This document shows, piece by piece, positions 3,902-25,400 of a stretch of DNA of 64,000 nucleotides. Made by a program: the position numbers and the translations under genes. The DNA lies in NCBI RefSeq assembly GCF_012163135.1, contig NZ_JAAVUP010000002.1, positions 868,001 through 932,000 of the forward strand. Reading direction: 5' to 3'. Under the pieces are notes generated by a model. That model saw only the letters and a list, made by a program, of their open reading frames with translations, was not told the DNA's origin and made no database searches. Each line of letters begins with the position of its first letter. Position 1 is the stretch's first letter. The stretch comes from Neoroseomonas oryzicola (lineage in GTDB: Bacteria; Pseudomonadota; Alphaproteobacteria; Acetobacterales; Acetobacteraceae).

Positions 3902-4377
3902 GGCGCCGTCGCGGCGCGATCCTGATCGAGTTCGCCCTGACGGGGCCGCTGCTCTTCGCCCTGATGATGACGGTGATGGAAGGCGCCTGGCAGGCGCTGA
4001 CGGCCGCGACGCTCGACATCGGGGCGCGGGAGGCGAGCCGCTTCGGCGCGACCGGTGCCGCCGCGCCCGACTGGCTGCCGCCCCCTGCGCCCGCGACGCG
4101 CGAGGATGCGGTACGGCGCGTCGTGCTGTTCTTCGGGCCCTATGTGCTGCGGGCCGACCGGCTCAGCGTCGCGATTGCATCCTACGGCACCGCGGGCGCC
4201 CTCGCGACGCCGGATGCGGGGCGCGCCGGGGCCGGCGCGGCGGGGGAGACGGTGCTCTATGAGCTCTCCTACCGGCAGCCCTTCCTCACGCCCTTCCCGG
4301 CGTTGCTGCTCGGCCAGCCTGAGATCGACCACCGGACACGGATGATCGTGCGCAATGAGCCCTTTCCGGCCTCGTGA
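3898..4377 (+). CDS. tadE: TadE-like pseudopilin
   Basis: Small membrane-anchored protein of 159 residues of the TadE family. A short arginine-rich head (MRRRR) is followed by G6-AILI-E11 and a hydrophobic helix to about residue 30. Glycine followed five residues later by glutamate is the signature of prepilin-like proteins processed by the TadV/CpaA prepilin peptidase. The rest is a soluble domain with no motif I recognise. It starts inside the tadD stop and overlaps the next gene by 23 bases, so expression is likely coupled. Confidence 0.85.
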   Translation: MRRRRGAILIEFALTGPLLFALMMTVMEGAWQALTAATLDIGAREASRFGATGAAAPDWLPPPAPATREDAVRRVVLFFGPYVLRADRLSVAIASYGTAGALATPDAGRAGAGAAGETVLYELSYRQPFLTPFPALLLGQPEIDHRTRMIVRNEPFPAS

Positions 4378-4924
4378 CCGACGCCGCGGCTCGGTCGCGA
4401 TCGAGTTCGTGCTCGTCGCGCCGGTGATCGCGATGCTCGGACTCGCCGTGCTCGACGTGGTGGATTTCCTGCGGGTCACGCTGCGTCTCGAACGCACGGC
4501 GGGGGAGGTCGCCAACATCGTCGCGCAGTACGAGATGCTGACGGAATCCGACGTCGCCGCGCTGTTCGACCTCGCCGCGCGCATCGCCGCGCCGCATCGC
4601 GTGACCCAGGCGGATGGCGCGGTGATCCTCTCGGGGCTGGCGAACCAGGGCTCGGGGACCGTCGTGCTGTGGCAGCGGCGGGCCGGGGCGGGCGGCTATG
4701 CCAGCGCCTTCGGCAACGAGGGCGGGCCGGCGACGATCCCGCCACGCTCGGCCGACCTGGTGCTGACGAGCGGGCAGGGGGCCATCGTCGCCGAGGTCTT
4801 CCTCGCGCGCGAACCCTGGATCCTCGCCGGGCGCTTCCTGCCCTCGGATCCCTTCACGCGGCTGCAGAGCTTCGCGCTGCAGCGGCCGCGCATGGTCTCG
4901 ATCCTGCGGATGACCACGTCGTGA
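4355..4924 (+). CDS. second TadE/TadF-like pseudopilin
   Basis: 189-residue protein with the same architecture as the preceding gene: basic head, then G12-SVAI-E17 and a hydrophobic helix running to about residue 40. This is the prepilin-like cleavage signature. Tad loci often encode two such minor pseudopilins, TadE and TadF, and this is the likely TadF equivalent, although its sequence resembles TadE-family openings. It overlaps the upstream gene by 23 bases and the downstream GTG start by four (GTGA at 4921-4924). Two dissimilar pseudopilins in a row support a complete minor-pilin set. Confidence 0.82.
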   Translation: MSPFRPRDRRRGSVAIEFVLVAPVIAMLGLAVLDVVDFLRVTLRLERTAGEVANIVAQYEMLTESDVAALFDLAARIAAPHRVTQADGAVILSGLANQGSGTVVLWQRRAGAGGYASAFGNEGGPATIPPRSADLVLTSGQGAIVAEVFLAREPWILAGRFLPSDPFTRLQSFALQRPRMVSILRMTTS

Positions 4925-14673: not shown

Positions 14674-15269
14674 GGGGCGGTCTCCGCAGCGGGGGGATCG
14701 AGAAGGGTCAGGGCCTGGCGCACGGCGCCGCGCAGCAACGCGGGCTCGGGCCGCGCGCGCGCCAGGACGCGCAGCCCCATCACGGTGGTCAGGAACAGGC
14801 GGGCGAGGTCGCGGGGCCGCGCGCGGCGCGCGATCGTCCCGTCCTGCTGGCCGCGTTCCACGCAGCGGTGGAAGAAGGCCTCGAGCTCCCCGAGGCGCTC
14901 GGCGACGACGGCGCCGACCTCCTCGTCATGCGGCGCGACCTCGAGCGCGGTGTTCACCAGCATGCAGCCGCGGCGATCGATCAGGGATCGCTCGGCGCTT
15001 TCCTCGAGAAAGGCCTCGATGGCGCGGCGCGGCGGATTGGCCGCCTCGTGCCGCGCGATGCGCTCGCGCATGTTGGCATCGAGGTAGCGGTCGAGGCAGC
15101 GGGTGAAGAGCGCCCGCTTGTCGCCGAAGGCGTTGTAGAGGCTCGCCGCGCCGAGCCCCATGCAGGTGCCGAGGTCGCGCACCGAGGTCGCGGCGTAGCC
15201 GTGTTCCCAGAAGCGGATGGTCGCGGCCTCGAGGGCGGCGTCCTCGTCGAAGGTGCGCGGGCGGGACAC
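14670..15269 (-). CDS. TetR/AcrR-family transcriptional regulator
   Basis: 199-residue regulator starting at a GTG. The N-terminal helix-turn-helix is clear: AATIRFWEHGYAATSVRDLG at residues 15-34, then MGLGAASLYNAFGDKRALF. The C-terminal ligand-binding part contains RRGCMLVNTALEVAPHDEEV, typical of the YxaF/LmrA-like group that often controls electrophile-responsive genes. It is first in an operon with two GSTs and a peroxiredoxin and presumably represses it. Two perfect palindromes lie directly upstream, one within the promoter spacer, and are the obvious binding sites. The inducer is unknown. Confidence 0.9.
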   Translation of the reverse strand: MSRPRTFDEDAALEAATIRFWEHGYAATSVRDLGTCMGLGAASLYNAFGDKRALFTRCLDRYLDANMRERIARHEAANPPRRAIEAFLEESAERSLIDRRGCMLVNTALEVAPHDEEVGAVVAERLGELEAFFHRCVERGQQDGTIARRARPRDLARLFLTTVMGLRVLARARPEPALLRGAVRQALTLLDPPAAETAP

Positions 15270-15284
15270 GGAGCGGCTCCATGC

Positions 15285-15308
15285 ATTCTGTATCGTGCGA
15301 TACAGAAT
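15285..15308. promoter_or_regulatory. inverted repeat, candidate TetR operator
   Basis: Perfect 11-base arms (ATTCTGTATCG and CGATACAGAAT) around a 2-base centre. It overlaps the -10 edge and the probable transcription start of the tetR operon. Its AT content stands out against the GC-rich surroundings. Length and position fit an autoregulatory TetR site. Confidence 0.65.
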
Positions 15309-15334
15309 TTATGGAGCGATCGCTCCAATAGCAA
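15306..15334 (-). promoter_or_regulatory. promoter of the tetR-GST-peroxiredoxin operon
   Basis: Minus-strand sigma-70-like promoter: -35 TTGCTA (15334-15329), 17-base spacer, -10 TAAATT (15311-15306). Sixteen of the 17 spacer bases form a perfect palindrome (15312-15327). The position fits the GTG start at 15269. Confidence 0.55.
15312..15327. promoter_or_regulatory. palindromic operator in promoter spacer
   Basis: Perfect 16-base palindrome TGGAGCGATCGCTCCA located between the -35 and -10 elements. Occupancy by a dimeric regulator would block RNA polymerase. The neighbouring TetR-family gene is the likely source of the regulator. Confidence 0.55.
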
Positions 15335-15338
15335 GCCC

Positions 15339-16586
15339 CTATTCGGCGGCCTGCTTCGCCGCGGCTTCCCGCACCACGCCGAGGCCGCGCAGGCGGGCGA
15401 GTTCCGCCGCGCCGAGCACGGGGGCGAGGATCTCGTCATTGTGCTCGCCGATGCGCGGCGCCGGGCGCGCCAGCACGCCGGGCGTGCCCGACAGCCGCGG
15501 CACCAGCCCGTGCATCGGCAGCCAGCCGCCGGGCATGTCGGCGTCGGGCACCTCGATCAGCGCCTCGCGCTCGATCGCGTAGGGATCCTTCTCGAGCATG
15601 GCGGTGTCCATGATCGGGCCGATCGTCACGCCGGCCTTGTCGAAATGCGCGAGGTTCTCCTCGAGCGTCCGCTCGCCGATCCAGCCGCCGATGATGGCGT
15701 CGAGTTCCTGCCAGTGCTGCAGCCGTGCCGGATTGTTGGCGAAGCGCGGGTCGGCGATCATGTCCTCCCGCCCGATGGAGCGGAACAGCTTCTCCGTCAT
15801 GCCCTGGGTCGAGGCCGAGAGGCACACCCAGCCGCCATCCTTGGTGCGGTAGGCGTTGCGCGGGGAAGTGTTGGTCGAGCGGCTGCCGGTGCGCGGCTTG
15901 CGCTTCTGGGTAATGCGCCAGTTCGCGACCTGCGGTTCGAGCACGCTGAACAGCGGCTCGAAGAGCGAGACGTCGAGCACCTGGCCGCCGCCGCCCGCTT
16001 CCGCATGACGCAGCGCGATCATCGCGACCGAGGCGCCGTAGAGGCCCGCATAGGCATCGCCCATGAACATCGGCGGCAGCACCGGCTCGCGGTCGTCGAA
16101 GCCGTTGACGGCCGCGAAGCCGGAATAGCCCTCGACCAGCGTGCCGAAGCCGGGCTTGTGCTGGAACGGCCCGTCCTGGCCCCAGCCCGAGATGCGCACG
16201 ATCACCAGGGCGGGATTGATTTCCAGCAGCACCGAAGGCGGCAGGCCCATCGCCTCGAGCACGCCGGGGCGGAAGGATTCAACGAAGATCGCGGCGTCCT
16301 TCACCAGCGCCTTGACCACCGCGATGCCCTCGGCGCGCTTCAGATCCAGCGCGACCGACTTCTTGTTGCGGCAGATGGTCTTCCAGGATGTCTCGACGCC
16401 GCCGACGCGCCAGGCGCGCAGCGTGTCGCCCTCGGGCGGTTCGACCTTCACCACCTCGGCCCCGTGGTCCGAGAAGACCTTGGTCAGCACGTTGCCGGCG
16501 ACGAGGCGCGAGAGGTCCACCACCCGCACGCCGTCCATGGCGCCGCGCGCGGCGGGGTCGAAGTGCTTGCGGTGGATGCCGGTCAT
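15339..16586 (-). CDS. CaiB/BaiF-family (family III) CoA-transferase
   Basis: 415-residue CoA-transferase that moves CoA between carboxylic acids through an enzyme-bound anhydride. The N-terminus GVRVVDLSRLVAGNVLTKVF and the KSVALDLKR segment are diagnostic. The predicted catalytic aspartate is in MFMGDAYAGLYGASVAMIAL near residue 178. It lies eight bases downstream of a Bug-family receptor gene on the same strand, so the acid imported by that system is probably activated here as a CoA thioester. Acceptor and donor acids cannot be read from the sequence. Confidence 0.92.
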   Translation of the reverse strand: MTGIHRKHFDPAARGAMDGVRVVDLSRLVAGNVLTKVFSDHGAEVVKVEPPEGDTLRAWRVGGVETSWKTICRNKKSVALDLKRAEGIAVVKALVKDAAIFVESFRPGVLEAMGLPPSVLLEINPALVIVRISGWGQDGPFQHKPGFGTLVEGYSGFAAVNGFDDREPVLPPMFMGDAYAGLYGASVAMIALRHAEAGGGGQVLDVSLFEPLFSVLEPQVANWRITQKRKPRTGSRSTNTSPRNAYRTKDGGWVCLSASTQGMTEKLFRSIGREDMIADPRFANNPARLQHWQELDAIIGGWIGERTLEENLAHFDKAGVTIGPIMDTAMLEKDPYAIEREALIEVPDADMPGGWLPMHGLVPRLSGTPGVLARPAPRIGEHNDEILAPVLGAAELARLRGLGVVREAAAKQAAE

Positions 16587-16594
16587 GGCGGTCC

Positions 16595-17563
16595 TCAGTC
16601 GATGCGGATGTTCGCGAGCTGTGCGACCTCGCGCCAGCGGGCGATGTCGGCGCGCAGCATGGCGGTGAATTCCGCGGGCGTCGCGGGGGAGGGGCGGGCG
16701 CCCTCGCCCTGGTAGAGCCGCGCCATGTCAGGGTCGCGCAGGGCAGCGTTGGCCTCGGCGTTCAGCCTTTCGAGCAACGGCGCCGGCAGACCGTGCGGCG
16801 CGAAGAGGCCCCACCAGATCGAGATGTCGTAGTCGAGCCCGCTCTCGGTCACGAGCGGCGCGGGCGGCGAGCCCTCCGGGATGCCCTGCGCGCTGTAGGC
16901 CAGGAGCCGCACGCGCCCGTCCCGCACCACGCCCGCCGCGCTCGGCAGCGTCGTGATCATCAGCTGGATGTGGCCCGCGACGAGGTCCGTCACGGCCGGG
17001 CCGGTGCCGCGATAGGGCACGTGGTTCATCTGCACGCCGGCGCGCTGGCAGAAGTATTCCGTGACGAAGTGGTTGATGCCGCCGGGCCCCGAGGTGCCGT
17101 AGTCGATCCGCCCGGGACGTTCCTTCGCGAGGTTCACGAGGTCCCGCACGCTGCGCGCCGGCAGGTCGTTGTTGACGATGACGATGAAGGGCGAGCGCCC
17201 CAGCCAGGCGACCGGCGTGAAGTTCTCGAGCACCCCCCAGGGCACGCGCTGGGAGACGGAGGTGGTCGCGAAGGAGGAGGAGGAGACCATCAGCGTGTAG
17301 CCGTCCGCAGCGGTCTGGGCGACTGAGGTCGCGCCGATCGCCCCGCCGGCGCCAGGCCGGTTCTCGATGATCACCGGCTGGCCGAGCCGCTGCTGCAGCC
17401 GTTCGGCGAGCGGGCGGGCCACCACGTCGTTCGACCCGCCGGGCGGGAAGGGCACCACGATCTTCACCGGCCGGTTTGGCCAGGCGCCCTGTGCGCGCAC
17501 CGCCGGCGCGGCGAGCACAAAGCCCGCCGCCAGCGCCGCGCGGCGTCCCGTCATCATGGTCAT
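16595..17563 (-). CDS. tripartite tricarboxylate transporter receptor (Bug/TctC family)
   Basis: 322-residue periplasmic solute receptor. I chose the ATG at 17563 because GGGAG lies just upstream and the signal peptide (TGRRAALAAGFVLAAPAVRAQ) then has normal length with a twin arginine; longer in-frame starts exist to 17605. Motifs: VVPFPPGGSNDVVARPLAER, GQPVIIENRPGAGGAIG, GTSGPGGINHFVTEYF and HVPYRGTGPAVTDL. It precedes and probably co-transcribes with the CoA-transferase gene. Ligand unknown; family members bind small carboxylates, amides or aromatic acids. Confidence 0.92.
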   Translation of the reverse strand: MTMMTGRRAALAAGFVLAAPAVRAQGAWPNRPVKIVVPFPPGGSNDVVARPLAERLQQRLGQPVIIENRPGAGGAIGATSVAQTAADGYTLMVSSSSFATTSVSQRVPWGVLENFTPVAWLGRSPFIVIVNNDLPARSVRDLVNLAKERPGRIDYGTSGPGGINHFVTEYFCQRAGVQMNHVPYRGTGPAVTDLVAGHIQLMITTLPSAAGVVRDGRVRLLAYSAQGIPEGSPPAPLVTESGLDYDISIWWGLFAPHGLPAPLLERLNAEANAALRDPDMARLYQGEGARPSPATPAEFTAMLRADIARWREVAQLANIRID

Positions 17564-17694
17564 GGTCGTCACTCCCGGTCGTTTCCTGGCGCGAGTGTCG
17601 CCCAACCCGCAACGCGCCGGAAGCCGGGGACGTCAGCGCTGCGTTAACCCGCGCCTGTCACATCGCTGGGGCAGACCAGGAGGGTCCGCCGCCG

Positions 17695-18174
17695 ATGGAG
17701 TCGGACAGGCCGTTCCGGGAATGGCCGCTGGAACAACTGGCCGAACAGGCCATGCTGCATCGCGCCGATGCACGGGTGCTGGCCGGCCTCGCCGCGGAGG
17801 CCGCCCGCCGCCCCGGCGTGCGCGCCAAGGCCGTCCATGCCCGCATCCGCCAGATGCAGGACGGGGCAGGCCCATTGGCCGGCGCAGGCGTGCCCGAGCT
17901 GCGGGAGATGCTCGCCGCCGCGGCCGGGGAGATCGCCCGGCTGCGCGCGCGCCTTGCCGCTGTGACGGCCGAGGAGGCGGGGGCGGGGCCACATCGCCGC
18001 GTCTACCTCACCCCCGATGCCCCGGCCTGGCTGATTGCGGAAGTGCGTCGCGCCTTCCGCAGGCGCTACCATCCCGATTCGCAGCCCGACCCATCGCGCA
18101 GGACGCGGGCAGAAGAGGTGTTTAAGCGCGCAGAAGCAGTGTTCATGGCAATTGAGCGCACGAAACAGTTGTAA
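17695..18174 (+). CDS. J-domain-like protein (HPD motif), first of tandem pair
   Basis: 159-residue protein of no named family. The start at 17695 is set by AGGAGG at 17678-17683; the frame extends further upstream without support. The N-terminal third (WPLEQLAEQAML onward, residues 10-52) is helical and resembles the same region of the next gene. The C-terminus reads YLTPDAPAWLIAEVRRAFRR, then YHPD (HPD at residues 126-128) and a charged helix. This matches helix II, the HPD loop and helix III of a DnaJ J domain, with helix I reduced. It could stimulate an Hsp70, or the HPD may be a chance remnant; duplication of the motif in the neighbour argues for function. Confidence 0.7.
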   Translation: MESDRPFREWPLEQLAEQAMLHRADARVLAGLAAEAARRPGVRAKAVHARIRQMQDGAGPLAGAGVPELREMLAAAAGEIARLRARLAAVTAEEAGAGPHRRVYLTPDAPAWLIAEVRRAFRRRYHPDSQPDPSRRTRAEEVFKRAEAVFMAIERTKQL

Positions 18175-18215
18175 TTGCTGGAATCGATTCGCTGGCTCGC
18201 GCAACCGCGAGTTTC

Positions 18216-18244
18216 TTGAACTGAGACGTAAGCCCGGTTACGTT
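18216..18244 (+). promoter_or_regulatory. candidate promoter with inverted repeat
   Basis: TTGAAC (18216-18221) and TACGTT (18239-18244) are spaced by 17 bases, in front of the gene starting at 18278. An inverted repeat ACGTAA-GCCCGG-TTACGT (18226-18243) fills the spacer and the -10. It is the only AT-rich stretch in the 103-base gap. The -10 match is weak. Confidence 0.35.
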
Positions 18245-18277
18245 CGAATTTCGAGAGCGGGGACCAGAATAGACCCC

Positions 18278-18844
18278 ATGGCGGCAGGAACAATTCCGCT
18301 TCCAAACCGGAAGTCGATCCAGAGCTGGCCTTCGGCCCGGCTGCTGGAACTCGCCGAGGCGCATGTCGGCGATCGCGACCTGTTGGAATTCATCCAGGTC
18401 GAGCTTAAGCGCCGTGACGTCGAGGTCGCGCACGCCGCGGCCCAGCGCGTCGCGGACCTGCTGAGCCGCGGCGTCGCGCCGGCTGCCGCCGCAGCGCCCG
18501 CGGACGACGAGGACGAGGACGCTCTCGCCCAGCGCGACCTCCGGATCGGCGCCCTGAAGGCGCGCATCGAGGCACTTGAGCAGCGCGTGCGCGAATCGGA
18601 GATGCGGGCGACCGCGGCGGAGCGGGCGCTGTCGATGGAATCGCTCCCCGCGCGCGGCGGCGGACTGCTGCGCCGGGTCCATCTGGCGGATACCGCGCCG
18701 GCCTGGCTGATCGACGCGGCGCGCCGCGCCTTCCGCCTGCGTTTCCACCCCGACCGCTTCGCCGACCCGCTGATGAAGTCGCGGGCCGAGGAAACCTTCA
18801 AGGAAGCCGAGGAAGTCTTCCGCCAGATCTCCGGCGGAAGCTGA
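18278..18844 (+). CDS. J-domain-like protein (HPD motif), second of tandem pair
   Basis: 188-residue protein paralogous to the preceding gene. The N-terminal region shares the pattern W-P-x-x-x-L-x-x-x-A (residues 17-26) and a following helix. Residues 83-118 form a likely coiled coil (heptads in DLRIGALKARIEALEQRV). The C-terminus has APAWLIDAARRAFRLRF, then HPDRF (HPD at 157-159) and KSRAEETFKEAEEVF, a better J-domain match than its sister. A poly-Ala/acidic linker (residues 67-82) separates the parts. Both genes are on the plus strand with separate putative promoters. Function unknown; an Hsp70 co-chaperone role is an inference. Confidence 0.72.
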   Translation: MAAGTIPLPNRKSIQSWPSARLLELAEAHVGDRDLLEFIQVELKRRDVEVAHAAAQRVADLLSRGVAPAAAAAPADDEDEDALAQRDLRIGALKARIEALEQRVRESEMRATAAERALSMESLPARGGGLLRRVHLADTAPAWLIDAARRAFRLRFHPDRFADPLMKSRAEETFKEAEEVFRQISGGS

Positions 18845-18861
18845 CCGGCTGCACGGGGCGG

Positions 18862-18893
18862 ATCCCGACCGGGTTGGTTTGCCCGGCCGGGAT
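18862..18893. terminator. hairpin between convergent genes
   Basis: Stem of about 11 pairs with one mismatch, ATCCCG..CCGGG against CCCGG..CGGGAT, loop TTGGTTTG (18874-18881). It lies between the J-like gene and the minus-strand bcp. There is no clear T tract. Confidence 0.45.
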
Positions 18894-18949
18894 GCCAGCG
18901 CGCCGGGAGAACGCGCCGTCGCCCTGCGCCAGTCCGGCCGTGACCGGCT

Positions 18950-19417
18950 TCAAAGCGCCGCGGCCGCCTCGAGCACCTGGGCCGCATGGGCCTCGGGCTT
19001 CACCTTGCGCCAGACCTTCACGATCTTGCCGTCGGCGCCGACCAGGAAGCTGCTCCGCTCCATGCCCATGTAGGTCTTGCCGTACATCGACTTCTCGACC
19101 CACACGCCATAGGCCTCGGCGACCTTGTGGTCCTCGTCAGAGGCGAGCGGGAATTCGAGGCCGAATTTCTGGGCGAACTTGTCGATCGGCGGGATCGGGT
19201 CCGGGCTGACGCCGATCACCTCGAGCCCCAGCTTGCCGAGCTGCGGCAGGGCCTCCTGCACGCCGCAGGCCTGCTTGGTGCAGCCCGGCGTATTTGCCTT
19301 CGGGTAGAAATACAGCAGGTAGGGCTTGCCCTTCAGCGCGGCGGAGGAGACCTCCCGCCCGCCCGAGGCCTTCATCTTGAACGCGGGCGCCTTCTTGCCC
19401 TCGGCCAGTTCGGTCAT
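18950..19417 (-). CDS. bcp: peroxiredoxin, Bcp/PrxQ type
   Basis: 155-residue thiol peroxidase that reduces H2O2 and alkyl hydroperoxides, usually with thioredoxin. The diagnostic motif is ANTPGCTKQAC: the peroxidatic cysteine is in PGCT, with the resolving cysteine five residues later, as in PrxQ enzymes. YLLYFYPKA precedes it and SDEDHKVAEAYGVW follows, both typical. The start overlaps the glnE stop by four bases, so bcp is the second gene of a glnE-bcp operon. That pairing is seen in several alphaproteobacteria, which is family knowledge rather than read here. Confidence 0.94.
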   Translation of the reverse strand: MTELAEGKKAPAFKMKASGGREVSSAALKGKPYLLYFYPKANTPGCTKQACGVQEALPQLGKLGLEVIGVSPDPIPPIDKFAQKFGLEFPLASDEDHKVAEAYGVWVEKSMYGKTYMGMERSSFLVGADGKIVKVWRKVKPEAHAAQVLEAAAAL

Positions 19418-22404
19418 TCGCGATCCCCGTTGATGTCGGGGCGGCCGAGGCGCCGTTCGAACACCGCGCGGACCTCGTTCGCCCGCCGGGCGATCTGTGC
19501 CTGGAGTGCCGGAAGGTCAACCGGCGCCTCGTCGGGCGTGAGGCGGCGGCAGACATTCAGCAGGGCGGCGGCGACGCTGTCGGGCAGCACTTCCTCCTTC
19601 CAGCGGCCCACGGTCAGGCGCAGCAGGCCGCTCACGGTCCGCCAGAGCCGCTCGGCGCCGATCAGGCGGGCGGCCTCCTCCGCGTCCAGCACCCCGGCCT
19701 CGGCGAGGCGCGCCAGGGCGAGGCGCGTCGTCGTCGCGAGCACGCCCGGATGCTGCCGGACATGGGCGATCTGCAGGGCCTGGGCGACGAATTCCACCTC
19801 GACCAGCCCGCCGCGGCCGAGCTTCAGGTCCCACGGCCCGTCGGGCGGCAGGTCCCGCAGCATCCGCGCGCGCATCGCGACCGCGTCGGGGATCGCCTTT
19901 TCCGCCGCGTCCGGGCGCAGCAGGGCGGCGCGGATCGCCGCCTCGATCTTGCGTTTGAGGCCGGGCGGGCCGGCGACGACCCGCGCGCGGGTCAGCGCCA
20001 TGCGCTCCCAGGTCCAGGATTCCTCGGCGTGGTAGCGCTGGAAGGAGGAGAGCGAGACGGCGACCGGCCCCTTCGAGCCCGAGGGCCGCAGCCGCATGTC
20101 GACCTCGTAGAGCCGCCCTTCCGCCCCCGGCGCGTTGATCGCGCCGATCACCTGGTGCGCGAGGCGCGCGAAGTATTGGCTGACCGGCAGCGGGCGGGGG
20201 GCTGGCTGGCCGCGCTTCGCCTTGCCTTCGCTCATCTCCGCCTCGGCGGCGTGGTCGTAGATGAGGACCAGGTCCAGGTCCGATCCGGGCAGCATCTCCC
20301 GCCCGCCGAGCTTGCCGAGCGCAACCACGGCGAGAGCACCGCCCTTGACCTTCCCGTGCCGCTCCGCGAAGGCAGCGGTGACATGGGGCAGCAGGGAGGA
20401 AATGGCGGCGTCGGCCAGCGCGGAGCGCGCCTCGCCCGCCACATCCACGTCGATCGACCCTTCCAGGGTCGCGGCGTCGATCTCGAACTTGCCTTCCTGG
20501 ACCAGGCGCCGGGCGGCCTCGAAGGCTTCCTCGATGTGCCGCGCGTCCTTCAGCTGGGCGGGCAGGGTCTGCGCGGCGTTGCCGATCGTCCCGCCGGCGC
20601 CGACCAGCAGCCCCTCCAGCGCCGCCGTGTGGCTCGCCAGGAAGTCGGCGAGCTGCGGCGCGGCGCCGAGGATGCCGGCCAGCCGGTCGAGCAGCGCCGG
20701 GTTGCGCGACAGCAGGCTGAGCACCTGCACGCCGGCCGCGAGCCGGCCCAGCACCCCGTCGAGGCGAGCGAGCGCCGCATCAGGGTCGCGCTGCTTCGCG
20801 AAGGCGCCGAGCAGGGCGGGCATCAGGGCGGTGAGGATCTCGCGCGCCCGTTCGCTGCGCGTCGCGCGGGTGTGGCCATGGTGCCAGCCGCGGACCAGCG
20901 CCGCGACGCCCGAGGGGTTCATGTAGCCCATGGACCGCAGCGTCGCGATCGTCGCCGGGTCGTCCTCGACGCCGGTGAACACCAGGCTGCCCTTGGTCTC
21001 CTCCGAGGCGAGCGTCGGCTCGGCCTCGAACATCCGGCCGTAATGGCGCTCGACCTTGACCATGTGGCCGGTGAAGGCAGCACGGAAGGCCTCCGGATCC
21101 TTGAAGCCGAGGAAGGAGGCGATGCGCGCCACGCCCTCGGCGTCTTCCGGCATGCGGTGGGTCTGCCGGTCGGCGACCATCTGCAGCCGGTGCTCGAGGT
21201 TGCGCAGGAAGACATAGGCGTCGGCGAGGTCGGCCGCCGCCCGCCGGTCGATCTTGCCCGCCGCGGCGAGGGAGGAGAGCGCGCCGAGCGTCGTCGGGTC
21301 GCGCAGCCCGGGATCGCGCCCGCCCCAGATCAGCTGCAACACCTGGGCGGTGAACTCGATCTCGCGGATGCCGCCGCGACCGAGCTTCACGTCATGGCCC
21401 TCGACCTGCACGGTGTCGTGGGCGCCCTTGGTCCCCTTGTGGGCGTGGATCTGGCGCTTGATCGAATGGATGTCGGCGACGGCGGCGAAATCGAGGTGGC
21501 GGCGCCAGACGAAGGGGCGGATCTCGCGCAGGAAGGATTCGCCCGCGGCACGGTCGCCCGCCACCGGGCGCGCCTTGATCATGGCGGCGCGTTCCCAGTT
21601 CTGGCCCATGCTCTCGTAGTAGGTGATGGCCGCCGGGATGGAGACCGCGAGCGGCGTCGCGGCCGGGTCGGGGCGGAGCCTGAGGTCGGTGCGGAAGACG
21701 TAGCCCTCCGCCGTGCGTTCCTCGAGCAGCCGCACCAGGTCGCGGGCGATCCGGACATAGACCGCCTGGGCCTGGTCGGCGTGGTAGGCTGCCGCCGACG
21801 GCTCGAACAGCACCATGAGGTCCACATCGGACGAGTAGTTCAGTTCCCGCCCGCCGAGCTTGCCCATGCCGAGCACGACGAGGCCGGAATTCCGCCCGAC
21901 GATGCGCGGATCCGCCCGGCTGGCGCCGGAAAGCCGGAGTTCGCCCCGTTCCGCCGCATGGCGCAGCAGGTGGGCGCAGGAGGCATCGATCGAGGCCTCG
22001 GCGAGGTCCGACAGCGCCCCGGTCACCCGGTCGAGCGGCCAGAGCCCGGTGATGTCCCCGAAGGCCGCGGCGAGCGCCCCCTGCCGCTTGGCCTGGCGCA
22101 GCAGCGTCGCCAGCGCGGGGCGGGGCGTGGCGGGATCGATGCGCCCGAGCGGATCGACGGCGCGGGCGAAGGCCTCGTCCGGCCCCCGTTCGGCCATCAG
22201 GAGCAGCGTCGCCGACTCCCGTGCCGCGAGGTCCGCGAGGTAGGGGCTGTGCCCCCCGAGCGCCTCCAGCAGCGCGGCCCCGGCCGGGGTCGCGGCGAAG
22301 GCGGCCTCCGCGGCGCCGCGTTCGGCAAAGGTGTCCCGCGCCGCGGTGGCCGCGGCGGGATCGAAGGGGCGGGGCAGGCGCTCGGGCGCGAAACAGGCCG
22401 GCAT
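19414..22404 (-). CDS. glnE: bifunctional glutamine synthetase adenylyltransferase/adenylyl-removing enzyme
   Basis: 996-residue enzyme that adenylylates and deadenylylates glutamine synthetase in response to PII, controlling nitrogen assimilation. It has two nucleotidyltransferase domains. The N-terminal (adenylyl-removing) active site is in GGRELNYSSDVDLMVLF near residue 190. The C-terminal (adenylylating) one is in GGREMLPGSDLDLVLIYDH near residue 705, each with the D-x-D metal pair. The length agrees with the family (about 950-1000). It is divergent from the AsmA-like gene with only 17 bases between starts, so the promoters must overlap neighbouring coding sequence. Confidence 0.96.
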   Translation of the reverse strand: MPACFAPERLPRPFDPAAATAARDTFAERGAAEAAFAATPAGAALLEALGGHSPYLADLAARESATLLLMAERGPDEAFARAVDPLGRIDPATPRPALATLLRQAKRQGALAAAFGDITGLWPLDRVTGALSDLAEASIDASCAHLLRHAAERGELRLSGASRADPRIVGRNSGLVVLGMGKLGGRELNYSSDVDLMVLFEPSAAAYHADQAQAVYVRIARDLVRLLEERTAEGYVFRTDLRLRPDPAATPLAVSIPAAITYYESMGQNWERAAMIKARPVAGDRAAGESFLREIRPFVWRRHLDFAAVADIHSIKRQIHAHKGTKGAHDTVQVEGHDVKLGRGGIREIEFTAQVLQLIWGGRDPGLRDPTTLGALSSLAAAGKIDRRAAADLADAYVFLRNLEHRLQMVADRQTHRMPEDAEGVARIASFLGFKDPEAFRAAFTGHMVKVERHYGRMFEAEPTLASEETKGSLVFTGVEDDPATIATLRSMGYMNPSGVAALVRGWHHGHTRATRSERAREILTALMPALLGAFAKQRDPDAALARLDGVLGRLAAGVQVLSLLSRNPALLDRLAGILGAAPQLADFLASHTAALEGLLVGAGGTIGNAAQTLPAQLKDARHIEEAFEAARRLVQEGKFEIDAATLEGSIDVDVAGEARSALADAAISSLLPHVTAAFAERHGKVKGGALAVVALGKLGGREMLPGSDLDLVLIYDHAAEAEMSEGKAKRGQPAPRPLPVSQYFARLAHQVIGAINAPGAEGRLYEVDMRLRPSGSKGPVAVSLSSFQRYHAEESWTWERMALTRARVVAGPPGLKRKIEAAIRAALLRPDAAEKAIPDAVAMRARMLRDLPPDGPWDLKLGRGGLVEVEFVAQALQIAHVRQHPGVLATTTRLALARLAEAGVLDAEEAARLIGAERLWRTVSGLLRLTVGRWKEEVLPDSVAAALLNVCRRLTPDEAPVDLPALQAQIARRANEVRAVFERRLGRPDINGDRE

Positions 22405-22421
22405 GATGGGGCAGGGAAGCG

Positions 22422-25400
22422 GTGAGGCGCGCCGCCGGTCAAGCCGGGCGCTATGTGAGCCGCTGCCTGCGGCTCATCCTCGCGGGCACCGTGCTGGCGG
22501 CGGCGGGGGTGACCGCGCTGGCTTGGCGGCTCGAACAGGGTCCCATGCCCATCCCCTGGCTGGCCAAGCGGGCCGAGGCGGTGCTCAACGCCGCCGGCGG
22601 CCCGACGCGGCTCGAGATCGGGGGCGCCTCGGTCACCTGGGCCGGCTGGCGGGAGGGGCACCGCTCGCCCCTCGGGCTTTTCCTCGAGCAGGTCCGGGCG
22701 GTCGAGCCGGACGGCGCGGTCCGGGCGGAACTGCCCGATGCCATGATCTCGCTCTCGGTGACGTCGCTGCTGCGCGGGCAGGTCGCGCTGCGCGCGCTCG
22801 AATTGCGGGGACTCGAGCTGCGCGCCATCCGCGCGGCCGATGGCGGCTTCCGGCTCGACCTCGGCACCCTCGGCGGGCAGGGCGGCGCGGCGGCGGAGAG
22901 CCCGCCCGCGGCCGAGGGCGACGGCATCCTGCTCGAGATGCTGGCGGACCTGATGCAGCCGCCGACCGAGGGCTCGCCGCTCGGGGCGCTGCAGTCGCTC
23001 CGGCTGCTCGATGCGCGGCTGACCGTCGCCGATGCGCAGCTCGGCCGGTCCTGGAGCGCCGAACTCGGCCGCCTCTCGATGACCCGGCGCCAGGGGGGCG
23101 GCGTCGACCTGGCCGGCACCGGCGACTTCGCCCTGGGCGGCGAGACCGTGCCGCTGCGCATCGGCGGGATGCTGGAAGGCGCGGCCTTCCGGGGGACCGC
23201 GGCGCTGACGCTGCCGTCGATCCGACCGGCGGCCCTGGCGCGGGCGGCGCCAGTGCTGGGCGCCCTCGCGGCGCTCGACGCGCAGGCCTCGGTGACGCTC
23301 GCCGTGCGGATCGAGGGGCTGCGCATTCCATCCGAGGCCGAGGCGCGGCTGCGGGTCGGGCCGGGCGTGATCGACCTCGGCGCACGCGGCCGCGTCCCGT
23401 TGCAGGCGCTGGAGGCGGACGCCGGCCTGGCCGATGGACGGCTGCGCCTGTCGAGCGTCGTGCTGCGCACCGCCCCGCCGCCGGGTGCCGCGGCACGGGC
23501 GCCGACCATCACCGGCCAGGCGGAAGCGCGACAGACGGATGCCGGCTGGCAGGCCGAGGCGACCCTTCGCGTCGACGAGGTCGCCTTCGCCGACCTGGGC
23601 CATTACTGGCCGTCGGGGATCGCCCACGGCGCGCGGGAATGGATCACCGAGAACATCACCGCCGGGCGGGTGCGCGGCGGCGAATGGCGCATCGGCCTGG
23701 AGGGGGACCCGGCGGGCGGGCGGGTGGCCGTCACCGCCCTCGAGGGCAGCGCGACCGCCGAGGATGCCGAGGTCCACTGGCTGCGGCCGATCCCACCGGC
23801 GCAGCATGTGCGCGGCGTCGCGCGCTTCGGGCGCGAGGCGATCGAGCTCGAGGTCGGCGGCGGGCGGCAGGCCGGCGGCGCGATCGGCGTGCGCGACGGG
23901 CGCATCCGCTTCGCCTTCGACACCGAGCCCGAATCGGCCGAGATCACCTTGCAGCTCGACGGGTCGCTGCCCGATGTCTGGACGCTGCTGAAGCACCCGC
24001 GGCTGCATCTGTTCGACACCCGCCCGCCGCCGGTGCCCGCGATCTTCGGGACGCTGCGGGAAGCCCGGCTGCAGATCGCCTTCCCGCTGATCTCGGAGCT
24101 GCCGGTCGAACGCCTGCGCGTCAGCGCGACCGGCCGGGCGAGCGAGGTGCGCGTGCCGCGCGCCCTGCTGGGCAAGGACCTCGAGCGCGGGGTCTTCGAG
24201 TTCTCCGCCGACACCGAGGGGCTGCGGATCAACGGCACCGGCGTGCTCGCAGGCATTCCGCTGCGCATCCAGCAGGAAGCCGATTTCCGCCCCGGCAACG
24301 CGAACCAGGTGGTGGCGCGGGAGGTCGTGACGGGCCGCGCCGATGCGCGGCAGATCGCGGGGCTGGGCCTCGACCCGCGGCCCTTCGTCGAAGGCCAGGT
24401 CGGCATCGATTCGCGCAGCGAGACGCGTCGCAACGGGCAGACCCGCGTCCGGCTGCGCACCGACTTCACCCAGTCGCGCCTGGCCGTCGACGCGCTGTCC
24501 TGGGCCAAGCCGCCGGGCGTGACCTCGGCAGGCGAGGCGATGCTGATCCTGCAGAACGGCACGCTGCAGCGCATCGAGGGCATCCGCGTCACCGCCCCCG
24601 ATGCGCTGCTGCGCGGCACGGCGGGCGAGACGCGCGACAACATCCCCGGCCGGATCGAGATCCAGCAGGCGCAGTTCGGCCGCAACCGCATGACAGGGGA
24701 GATCTTTCCGCCGCGCTCGGGCTCGGCCGGCTGGCAACTGGCGCTGCGTGGGCCGGTGCTGGACCTGGCGCCGGTGCTGGCCGCGCCGGCGCCGCCGCCG
24801 GCCACCGCGGGAGAGGAGGGCGGCGGGCAGAGCGTCTCCGTCGAGGCCCGCTTCGATCGGATGCTGCTGCGCGAGGATCGCGCGCTGACCGGCGTTTCCG
24901 CCTCGGCCCGCGTCAACGGCCAGGGCGTGGTGAACGCGGCGGAGGTGCGCGGCCGTGTCGATGGCGGTGGGACCTTCGAGATGCGCATCGCGCCCGAGGG
25001 CGGCGGCCGGCGCTTCCTGCTGACCAGCGAGGATGGCGGCGCCCTGCTGCGCGCCTTCGGCGTGCTGCGCACCGTCCAGGGTGGGCGGCTGACGGTCGAT
25101 GCCACCTACCCGCATTCGCGCGCCGGCGCGCCGCTGACCGGCGCGGCGGAGCTTGAGAACTTCGCGGTGCGCGACGCGCCGGCGCTCGCGAAGCTGCTGC
25201 AGGCCATGACGGTCTATGGCGTGTTCGAGGCGCTGTCGGCCCAGGGCCTCACCTTCGCCTCCCTGACCGCGCCCTTCACGCTGACGCGGGAATCGCTGGT
25301 GCTGAACGATGCGCGGGCCTTCTCGGTCTCGCTCGGCATCACCGCCAAGGGGCGCATCGACCGGATGCGCGAGACGATCGACATGGAGGGCACCATCGTG

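Follow-up and report, generated by a model that had tools for sequence, protein, structure and literature searches.

A tandem pair of small paralogous proteins with C-terminal J-domain-like modules in Neoroseomonas oryzicola: predicted class-C-like co-chaperones of DnaK

Introduction

The J-domain normally switches on an Hsp70 chaperone. In human P58(IPK)/DNAJC3, a helical part is followed by a C-terminal J-domain. According to PMC8215388, class C J-domain proteins, e.g. DjlA, have only the J-domain in common with DnaJ; it may lie anywhere in the chain, and the remainder of these proteins is heterogeneous. The same source places the contacts of the J-domain with DnaK at R22, K26, R27, K48 and K51 and at the HPD. 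In PMC1906734, helix II, the HPD, F47 and L57 matter for function, the Y7A and L10A forms of Agrobacterium DnaJ are inactive, Y25 is important, and residues of helix IV are important in Agrobacterium DnaJ but not in E. coli DnaJ. Agrobacterium is a closer relative than E. coli of the bacterium considered here. Contact residues are also reported to vary and coevolve between J-domain/Hsp70 pairs (PMC7289447).

Here we describe two adjacent genes of Neoroseomonas oryzicola, found in a window of 64,000 nucleotides (the whole stretch of DNA that was analysed), whose products are, judging from their sequences, probably two small J-domain co-chaperones of DnaK, class-C-like and specific to this lineage. 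They belong to a small, uncurated family with a narrow known range, no description of which was found in the literature searched, most subscription journals being outside its reach.

Results

The gene pair and the architecture of its products

Positions 17695-18844 begin with the ATG of protein 1 and finish with the stop codon of protein 2 (Table 1). The original prediction, that these are tandem paralogues with a shared AWLI-x(3)-RRAFR-x-R-x-HPD segment and related N-termini, was borne out in each part. The literal pattern occurs in both proteins (AWLIAEVRRAFRRRYHPD; AWLIDAARRAFRLRFHPD), their C-terminal 58 residues are 59% identical (E 1e-19), and the N-terminal profiles of the two sets of orthologues align over 52 residues in hhalign with a probability of 94.4% and a score of 38.6, the maximum among 100 column shuffles being 20.0. 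The two genes lie side by side in all 11 related loci, ten of them titled Neoroseomonas or Roseomonas and one a Rhodospirillales MAG (at one of the 11, L008, a contig end cuts protein 1), and dN/dS was 0.053-0.181 in seven chosen orthologue pairs. Based on this conserved tandem order and the low dN/dS, both genes are real, and both are under purifying selection. The nearest named relative of protein 2, at 91% identity, is in Neoroseomonas marina.

Table 1. Coordinates of the two genes and of the regions of their products within the window.
Feature	Position	Strand	Basis and remarks
Protein 1 (P0001), 159 aa: N-terminal helical region, long helix, C-terminal J-like module	17695..18174	+	mean pLDDT 84.0
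Protein 1 N-terminal helical region, residues 5-58, starts RPFREWP	17707..17868	+	model helices 12-21, 26-38, 42-57; related to protein 2 N-terminus
Protein 1 long helix, coiled-coil-like, residues 66-95	17890..17979	+	model; heptad-like spacing by eye from sequence
Protein 1 J-like module, residues 98-159: helix II 111-125, HPD, helix III 133-158	17986..18171	+	model and profiles
HPD of protein 1, residues 126-128	18070..18078	+	sequence
Protein 2 (P0002), 188 aa: architecture as protein 1, paralogue	18278..18844	+	mean pLDDT 73.7
Protein 2 N-terminal helical region, residues 12-66, KSIQSWPSARLLELAEAH...	18311..18475	+	model helices 19-28, 33-45, 49-65; related to protein 1 N-terminus
Protein 2 long helix, residues 78-120, heptad spacing I-x2-L-x3-I-x2-L-x3-V	18509..18637	+	model; spacing by eye from sequence and aligned rows
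Protein 2 J-like module, residues 129-188: helix II 142-156, HPD, helix III 164-187	18662..18841	+	model and profiles
HPD of protein 2, residues 157-159	18746..18754	+	sequence

AlphaFold2 models, built from 15 sequences for protein 1 and 13 for protein 2 (pTM 0.37 and 0.34; mean pLDDT in Table 1), are all-helical in both cases, and the long helix of each protein can be read by eye, from its heptad spacing, as coiled-coil-like. As originally proposed, the proteins are without zinc or substrate-binding domains, there being no Pfam row for a G/F region, a zinc finger or the beta-sandwich client domains, and neither has any other Pfam domain above threshold. Pfam rows for DUF1192, Sugarporin_N, Csm1_N and SlyX are weak, and those that could be placed map on or near the long helix below threshold. 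For the N-terminus, the BAG-domain and other helical rows obtained with VIA-align were no better than those for unrelated bundles, and we claim no fold for it.

Relationship of the C-terminal modules to J-domains

By profile comparison, the C-terminal ~60 residues of both proteins are homologous to J-domains. A module alignment (A4; 19 rows, hand-picked from the module rows plus L066) was compared by hhalign with 17 J-domains from this genome and its relatives, four near-duplicates having been left out of 21 readable domains, and the resulting match (88.8%, E 2.5e-6, score 32.5) spans columns 2-56, from helix I through helix III. This score was reached by none of 600 column shuffles, in 400 of which the HPD was kept in place: the best values were 17.7 when all columns were shuffled, 25.7 when the HPD stayed in place and 28.6 when it stayed and each side was shuffled (200 shuffles each). 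Among solved sequences, the best match of the A4 profile was 6z5n_A (DNAJB1; E 1.7e-5) and the leading rows were nearly all DnaJ/Hsp40 by name; mitoribosomal mL77, a ribosome-bound J-like protein, was also among the matches. A search of 398 genomes of the phylum matched eight, namely the organism's own and seven others, and in all seven the matched protein was by sequence a DnaJ/CbpA-type J-domain.

Pfam DnaJ was matched at E<=0.1 by 15 of 20 module members (best 3.9e-4) and NCBIfam NF008035 (DnaJ) by 13 of the 20 at the same limit; with full-length proteins, 8 of 28 gave a Pfam DnaJ match at E<=1 (best 0.019). Protein 1 scored 12.2 bits against PF00226, below the gathering score of 27.8, and protein 2 gave no Pfam DnaJ row at full length, its module alone reaching 13.7 bits against the cut-off of 27.8. 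The HMMER null is thinner than that of hhalign, in that, among 3000 J sequences shuffled around a fixed HPD, the best reached 20.4 bits and the second 16.4, and only three of the 17 real J-domains lay above 20.4 bits in that comparison. Because the modules fail the Pfam threshold and have no helix IV, we regard them as derived from a J-domain and J-like in anatomy, and not as standard members of the family.

The predicted structures are compatible with this assignment. The segment had been likened to J-domain helix II, HPD loop and helix III, and this likeness is supported by the profile comparison and by both AlphaFold2 models, in which helices II and III form a hairpin with the HPD in its loop. 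Both proteins end with helix III, helix IV being absent. The reduced helix I of the original prediction fared unevenly: helix I is absent from the model of protein 1, and a reduced helix fits that model and the sequence, but the hhalign match covers the helix-I stretch and the protein 2 model has a weak, low-confidence helix (residues 129-139) at this place. With neither model did Foldseek reach E<=0.001. For protein 1 its top row was P58(IPK) (E 0.14, probability 0.66), with the J-domain 2qsa at probability 0.80 and E 3.6; for protein 2 the top rows were unrelated and P58(IPK) stood fifth (E 1.4). In VIA-align, protein 1 superimposed on 5nro_B (DnaJ) with Z 5.7 and rmsd 2.9 and on 2qsa with Z 5.5 and rmsd 2.0, and the protein 2 module on the P58 J-domain with Z 5.5 and rmsd 2.5 (55 aligned residues each time), all three being tied with unrelated helical folds. 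In view of these ties and of the non-significant Foldseek rows, the structures are consistent with a J-domain and not decisive.

Conserved and altered residues

Residues were compared in DnaJ numbering and in the ungapped hhalign register, counting fetched loci only, taking identical modules once and skipping matches with fewer than 20 residues after the HPD. The HPD is unchanged in all 48 distinct modules and in both distant relatives described below. Also kept in 48 of 48 modules are an Arg at K26, F47, K48, a Phe at Y54 and an Ile or Leu at L57, and helix II has a mean net charge of about +3. K51 is Glu in every one of the 48, basic residues are not maintained at R22 and R27, Tyr occurs at Y7 in only three, L10 is mostly Val and Y25 mostly Arg. 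Thus K26 (as Arg) and K48 are kept among the five electrostatic DnaK contact positions and three are lost, a count that in helix II depends on the alignment register: the HMMER register differs by three residues missing at the end of that helix and gives the two distant relatives a Leu at K26, but in both registers a conserved Arg of the proteins falls on K26. Since the HPD is kept while Y7, L10, Y25, R22, R27 and K51 have changed, the trigger appears intact and the core and the docking charges appear altered. At locus L010 the protein 1 orthologue (4339-4854) carries a second HPD directly after the first in the loop (YHPDTHPD).

Distribution and history

A survey of phylogenetic range, as the original prediction had called for, gave a narrow one: the genus, one more genus of the order and two genomes of another order. 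Every one of the 35 genomes searched in the genus has at least one copy: 16 have two adjacent copies (contig ends split one of those in G284), 16 a single match and three some other second match, i.e. a decayed copy (G294), a fragment (G434) or two copies on separate contigs (G440). In the order, the family was found in 29 of 395 genomes and 2 of 84 genera. A family-level search with protein 2 alone matched 7 of 200 genomes, of which one was rejected because its match (L020) is by sequence a long membrane-protein-like ORF. In the class (385 genomes), G788 holds the one relative beyond the family that stood out, and in the order to which it belongs a relative is present in two of seven genomes (G788 and G823). 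Seven weak rows of the class search (E 6e-4 to 7e-3) were left out of the count of relatives, as was a match in G559 at 8.3e-6, which is the N-terminal J-domain of another protein. Relatives can be missed, because these searches cover a sample of each group and evaluate limited numbers of candidates in each genome.

The distant relatives in G788 and G823 (P0003 and L120) share with the pair a predicted long helix and a C-terminal HPD module that is 37-38% identical to that of protein 2. They differ from it in that the place of helix I reads LYxQVGL, which is closer to DnaJ, in that the N-terminal profile match is absent or partial, and in that each genome has one match. A flhB-like gene adjoins the distant relative at both loci (L084 and L120).

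In the tree, protein 2 forms a clade (100/100) apart from the P1-type rows, and the paired protein 1 sequences form another (97/98). Because the tree is unrooted, two histories are possible: judging from these sequences, the pair may stem from an old duplication followed by loss, or from a later duplication followed by fast change. In G294, a decayed protein-1-like copy (L078:7384-7560) with two stop codons and NPD in place of HPD sits between protein 1 and the peroxiredoxin gene, together with an intervening small ORF that is lipoprotein-like by its start. We considered this remnant as a sign that single-copy genomes have lost protein 2 and rejected it, since it matches protein 1 best and so is no proof of such a loss.

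Genomic context

Neighbouring genes, named by Pfam, were surveyed at 21 loci. At the 11 loci with the pair, TctC precedes protein 1 in nine and peroxiredoxin follows protein 2 in nine, both on the other strand; some of the misses are contig ends (L008, L013), while L005 is without TctC and L007 has no peroxiredoxin gene there. All seven loci of the genus that carry a single copy have CoA-transferase and TctC ahead of protein 1, and peroxiredoxin comes directly after protein 1 in three (L081, L086, L087) and after the decayed copy in L078; no peroxiredoxin gene was seen at L079, L080 and L085. In the second genus, one locus (L083) reads TctC, protein-1-like gene, another TctC-like gene, peroxiredoxin and GlnE, and the other (L082) has only TctC in common. 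The pair thus looks like a unit of its own that has been vertically inherited. A role read from the neighbours (CoA-transferase III, TctC, peroxiredoxin, GlnE) was dropped because the flanking genes lie on the opposite strand. At the surveyed loci, position does not tie the pair to dnaK or to heat shock genes.

A promoter and terminator scan of 17500-19000 found none, including no sigma-70-like promoter, and Rfam gave nothing at gathering scores in 15000-22500. Plasmids yielded no tblastn match to P0001, P0002 or P0003 and phages none to P0001, none of 113 pattern matches to A4 in viral contigs was confirmed, and PADLOC returned no family at E<=0.1; nothing in these searches points to a mobile element or a defence function.

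The only full-length HSP70 match in the genome is DnaK, encoded beside dnaJ. Among partial HSP70 matches, one is in a protein that is MreB-like by sequence and two are in a single ORF, which may encode a divergent HSP70-like protein; the partial match at C1:921951-922703 leaves room for another partner. Elsewhere in the genome there are five Pfam DnaJ matches, one of them below the cut-off, and three of the five end their protein (C12:330009-330164, C1:1257187-1257360 and C12:239940-240029, all outside the window, the last being the one below the Pfam cut-off). The C-terminal position of the J-like module, which had been contrasted with the usual N-terminal one in DnaJ, is therefore not unusual, the J-domain of class C proteins being free to lie anywhere (PMC8215388).

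Discussion

We propose that the two proteins act as a pair of small J-domain co-chaperones particular to this lineage, a reading that we consider somewhat better than even. The homology to J-domains, the residues that are kept, the low dN/dS, retention in all 35 genomes of the genus and the presence of a full-length DnaK were counted in its favor; the lost contacts, the changes at Y7, L10 and Y25, the scores below the Pfam threshold, the Foldseek and VIA-align results, the HMMER null, the lack of helix IV, the missing link to dnaK or heat shock, the absence of a sigma-70-like promoter and the further partial HSP70 match were counted against it. Such co-chaperones would dimerise, bind and stimulate DnaK and deliver a client to it. 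The N-terminal helical region would bind a client, a docking partner or a cell structure, and the coiled-coil-like helix would form homo- or heterodimers. The C-terminal module has helix II, the HPD loop and helix III together with a degenerate helix I. It would engage DnaK in its ATP state, docking the positively charged helix II on the nucleotide-binding domain and placing the aspartate of the HPD at the interdomain network; the ATP hydrolysis thereby triggered would let DnaK clamp whatever the N-terminal part had brought.

Several features set the pair apart from the systems that it resembles most. In comparison with class C proteins, it has a J-module below the Pfam threshold, with a degenerate helix I and no helix IV, and it occurs as a tandem pair with no other Pfam domain above threshold. 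The module shares with the J-domain of E. coli DnaJ (5NRO) and with PF00226 helix II, the HPD and helix III, an Arg at K26, F47, K48 and an Ile or Leu at L57, but R22, R27, K51, Y7 and Y25 are not kept and there is no helix IV. P58(IPK)/DNAJC3 (2y4t, 2y4u) offers an analogy of layout, its match being non-significant and the protein itself much larger.

The loss of three of the five electrostatic DnaK contacts (K51 being Glu throughout), the loss of Y7 and Y25 in most modules and the lack of helix IV are what would be expected if a J-domain descendant no longer drove Hsp70 and had become a hairpin with a structural or dimerising role inside a coiled-coil scaffold protein, and the ribosome-bound J-like proteins among the sequence matches (mitoribosomal mL77) point in the same direction. 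Against this stands the HPD itself, for which a bare hairpin would have no evident structural need: it is unchanged in every module counted and in both relatives at 37-38% identity, and the sole decayed copy that was found has lost it (NPD). The reported variation and coevolution of contact residues between J-domain/Hsp70 pairs (PMC7289447) also count against it. We consider a scaffold hairpin unlikely, although it is the strongest competitor of the co-chaperone reading.

The intact HPD bears in a similar way on the idea that the proteins are negative regulators, which would block the J-domain site of DnaK or associate with other J proteins and thereby control DnaJ/DnaK instead of supplying it with clients; an activator needs the HPD, but a pure decoy could lose it. 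Small size, the lack of a recognised client-binding domain, the coiled-coil-like helix and the tandem diverged copies would suit such regulators, and the phage J protein Rki has been suggested (PMC3486835) to compete with DnaJ for DnaK. On balance this role seems improbable to us. That two helices with an HPD in the loop resemble a J-domain by chance is more improbable by far. The single-sequence Pfam scores given above fall short of the threshold, helical hairpins occur widely and the structural scores do not discriminate, but the profile score was reached by no shuffle, whether or not the HPD was kept, and the best matches both in solved sequences and in the 398 genomes are J-domains.

Taken a step further, co-chaperone action by the pair could take the form of stripped helix II-HPD-helix III J-domains carried at the C-termini of two mutually pairing coiled-coil partners, a two-pronged recruiter of DnaK serving some client or structure specific to this acetobacteraceous branch, whose arms have diverged, one towards binding and the other towards triggering; we offer this as a speculation that is rather doubtful in its specifics. 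A curated model applied at its own cut-off misses divergent J proteins like these two. If the modules work, they would test how little a J-domain can consist of, being without the usual helix I tyrosine and helix IV and with helices II and III differently charged, and the tandem diverged copies would provide a natural case of J proteins specialising on one common DnaK.
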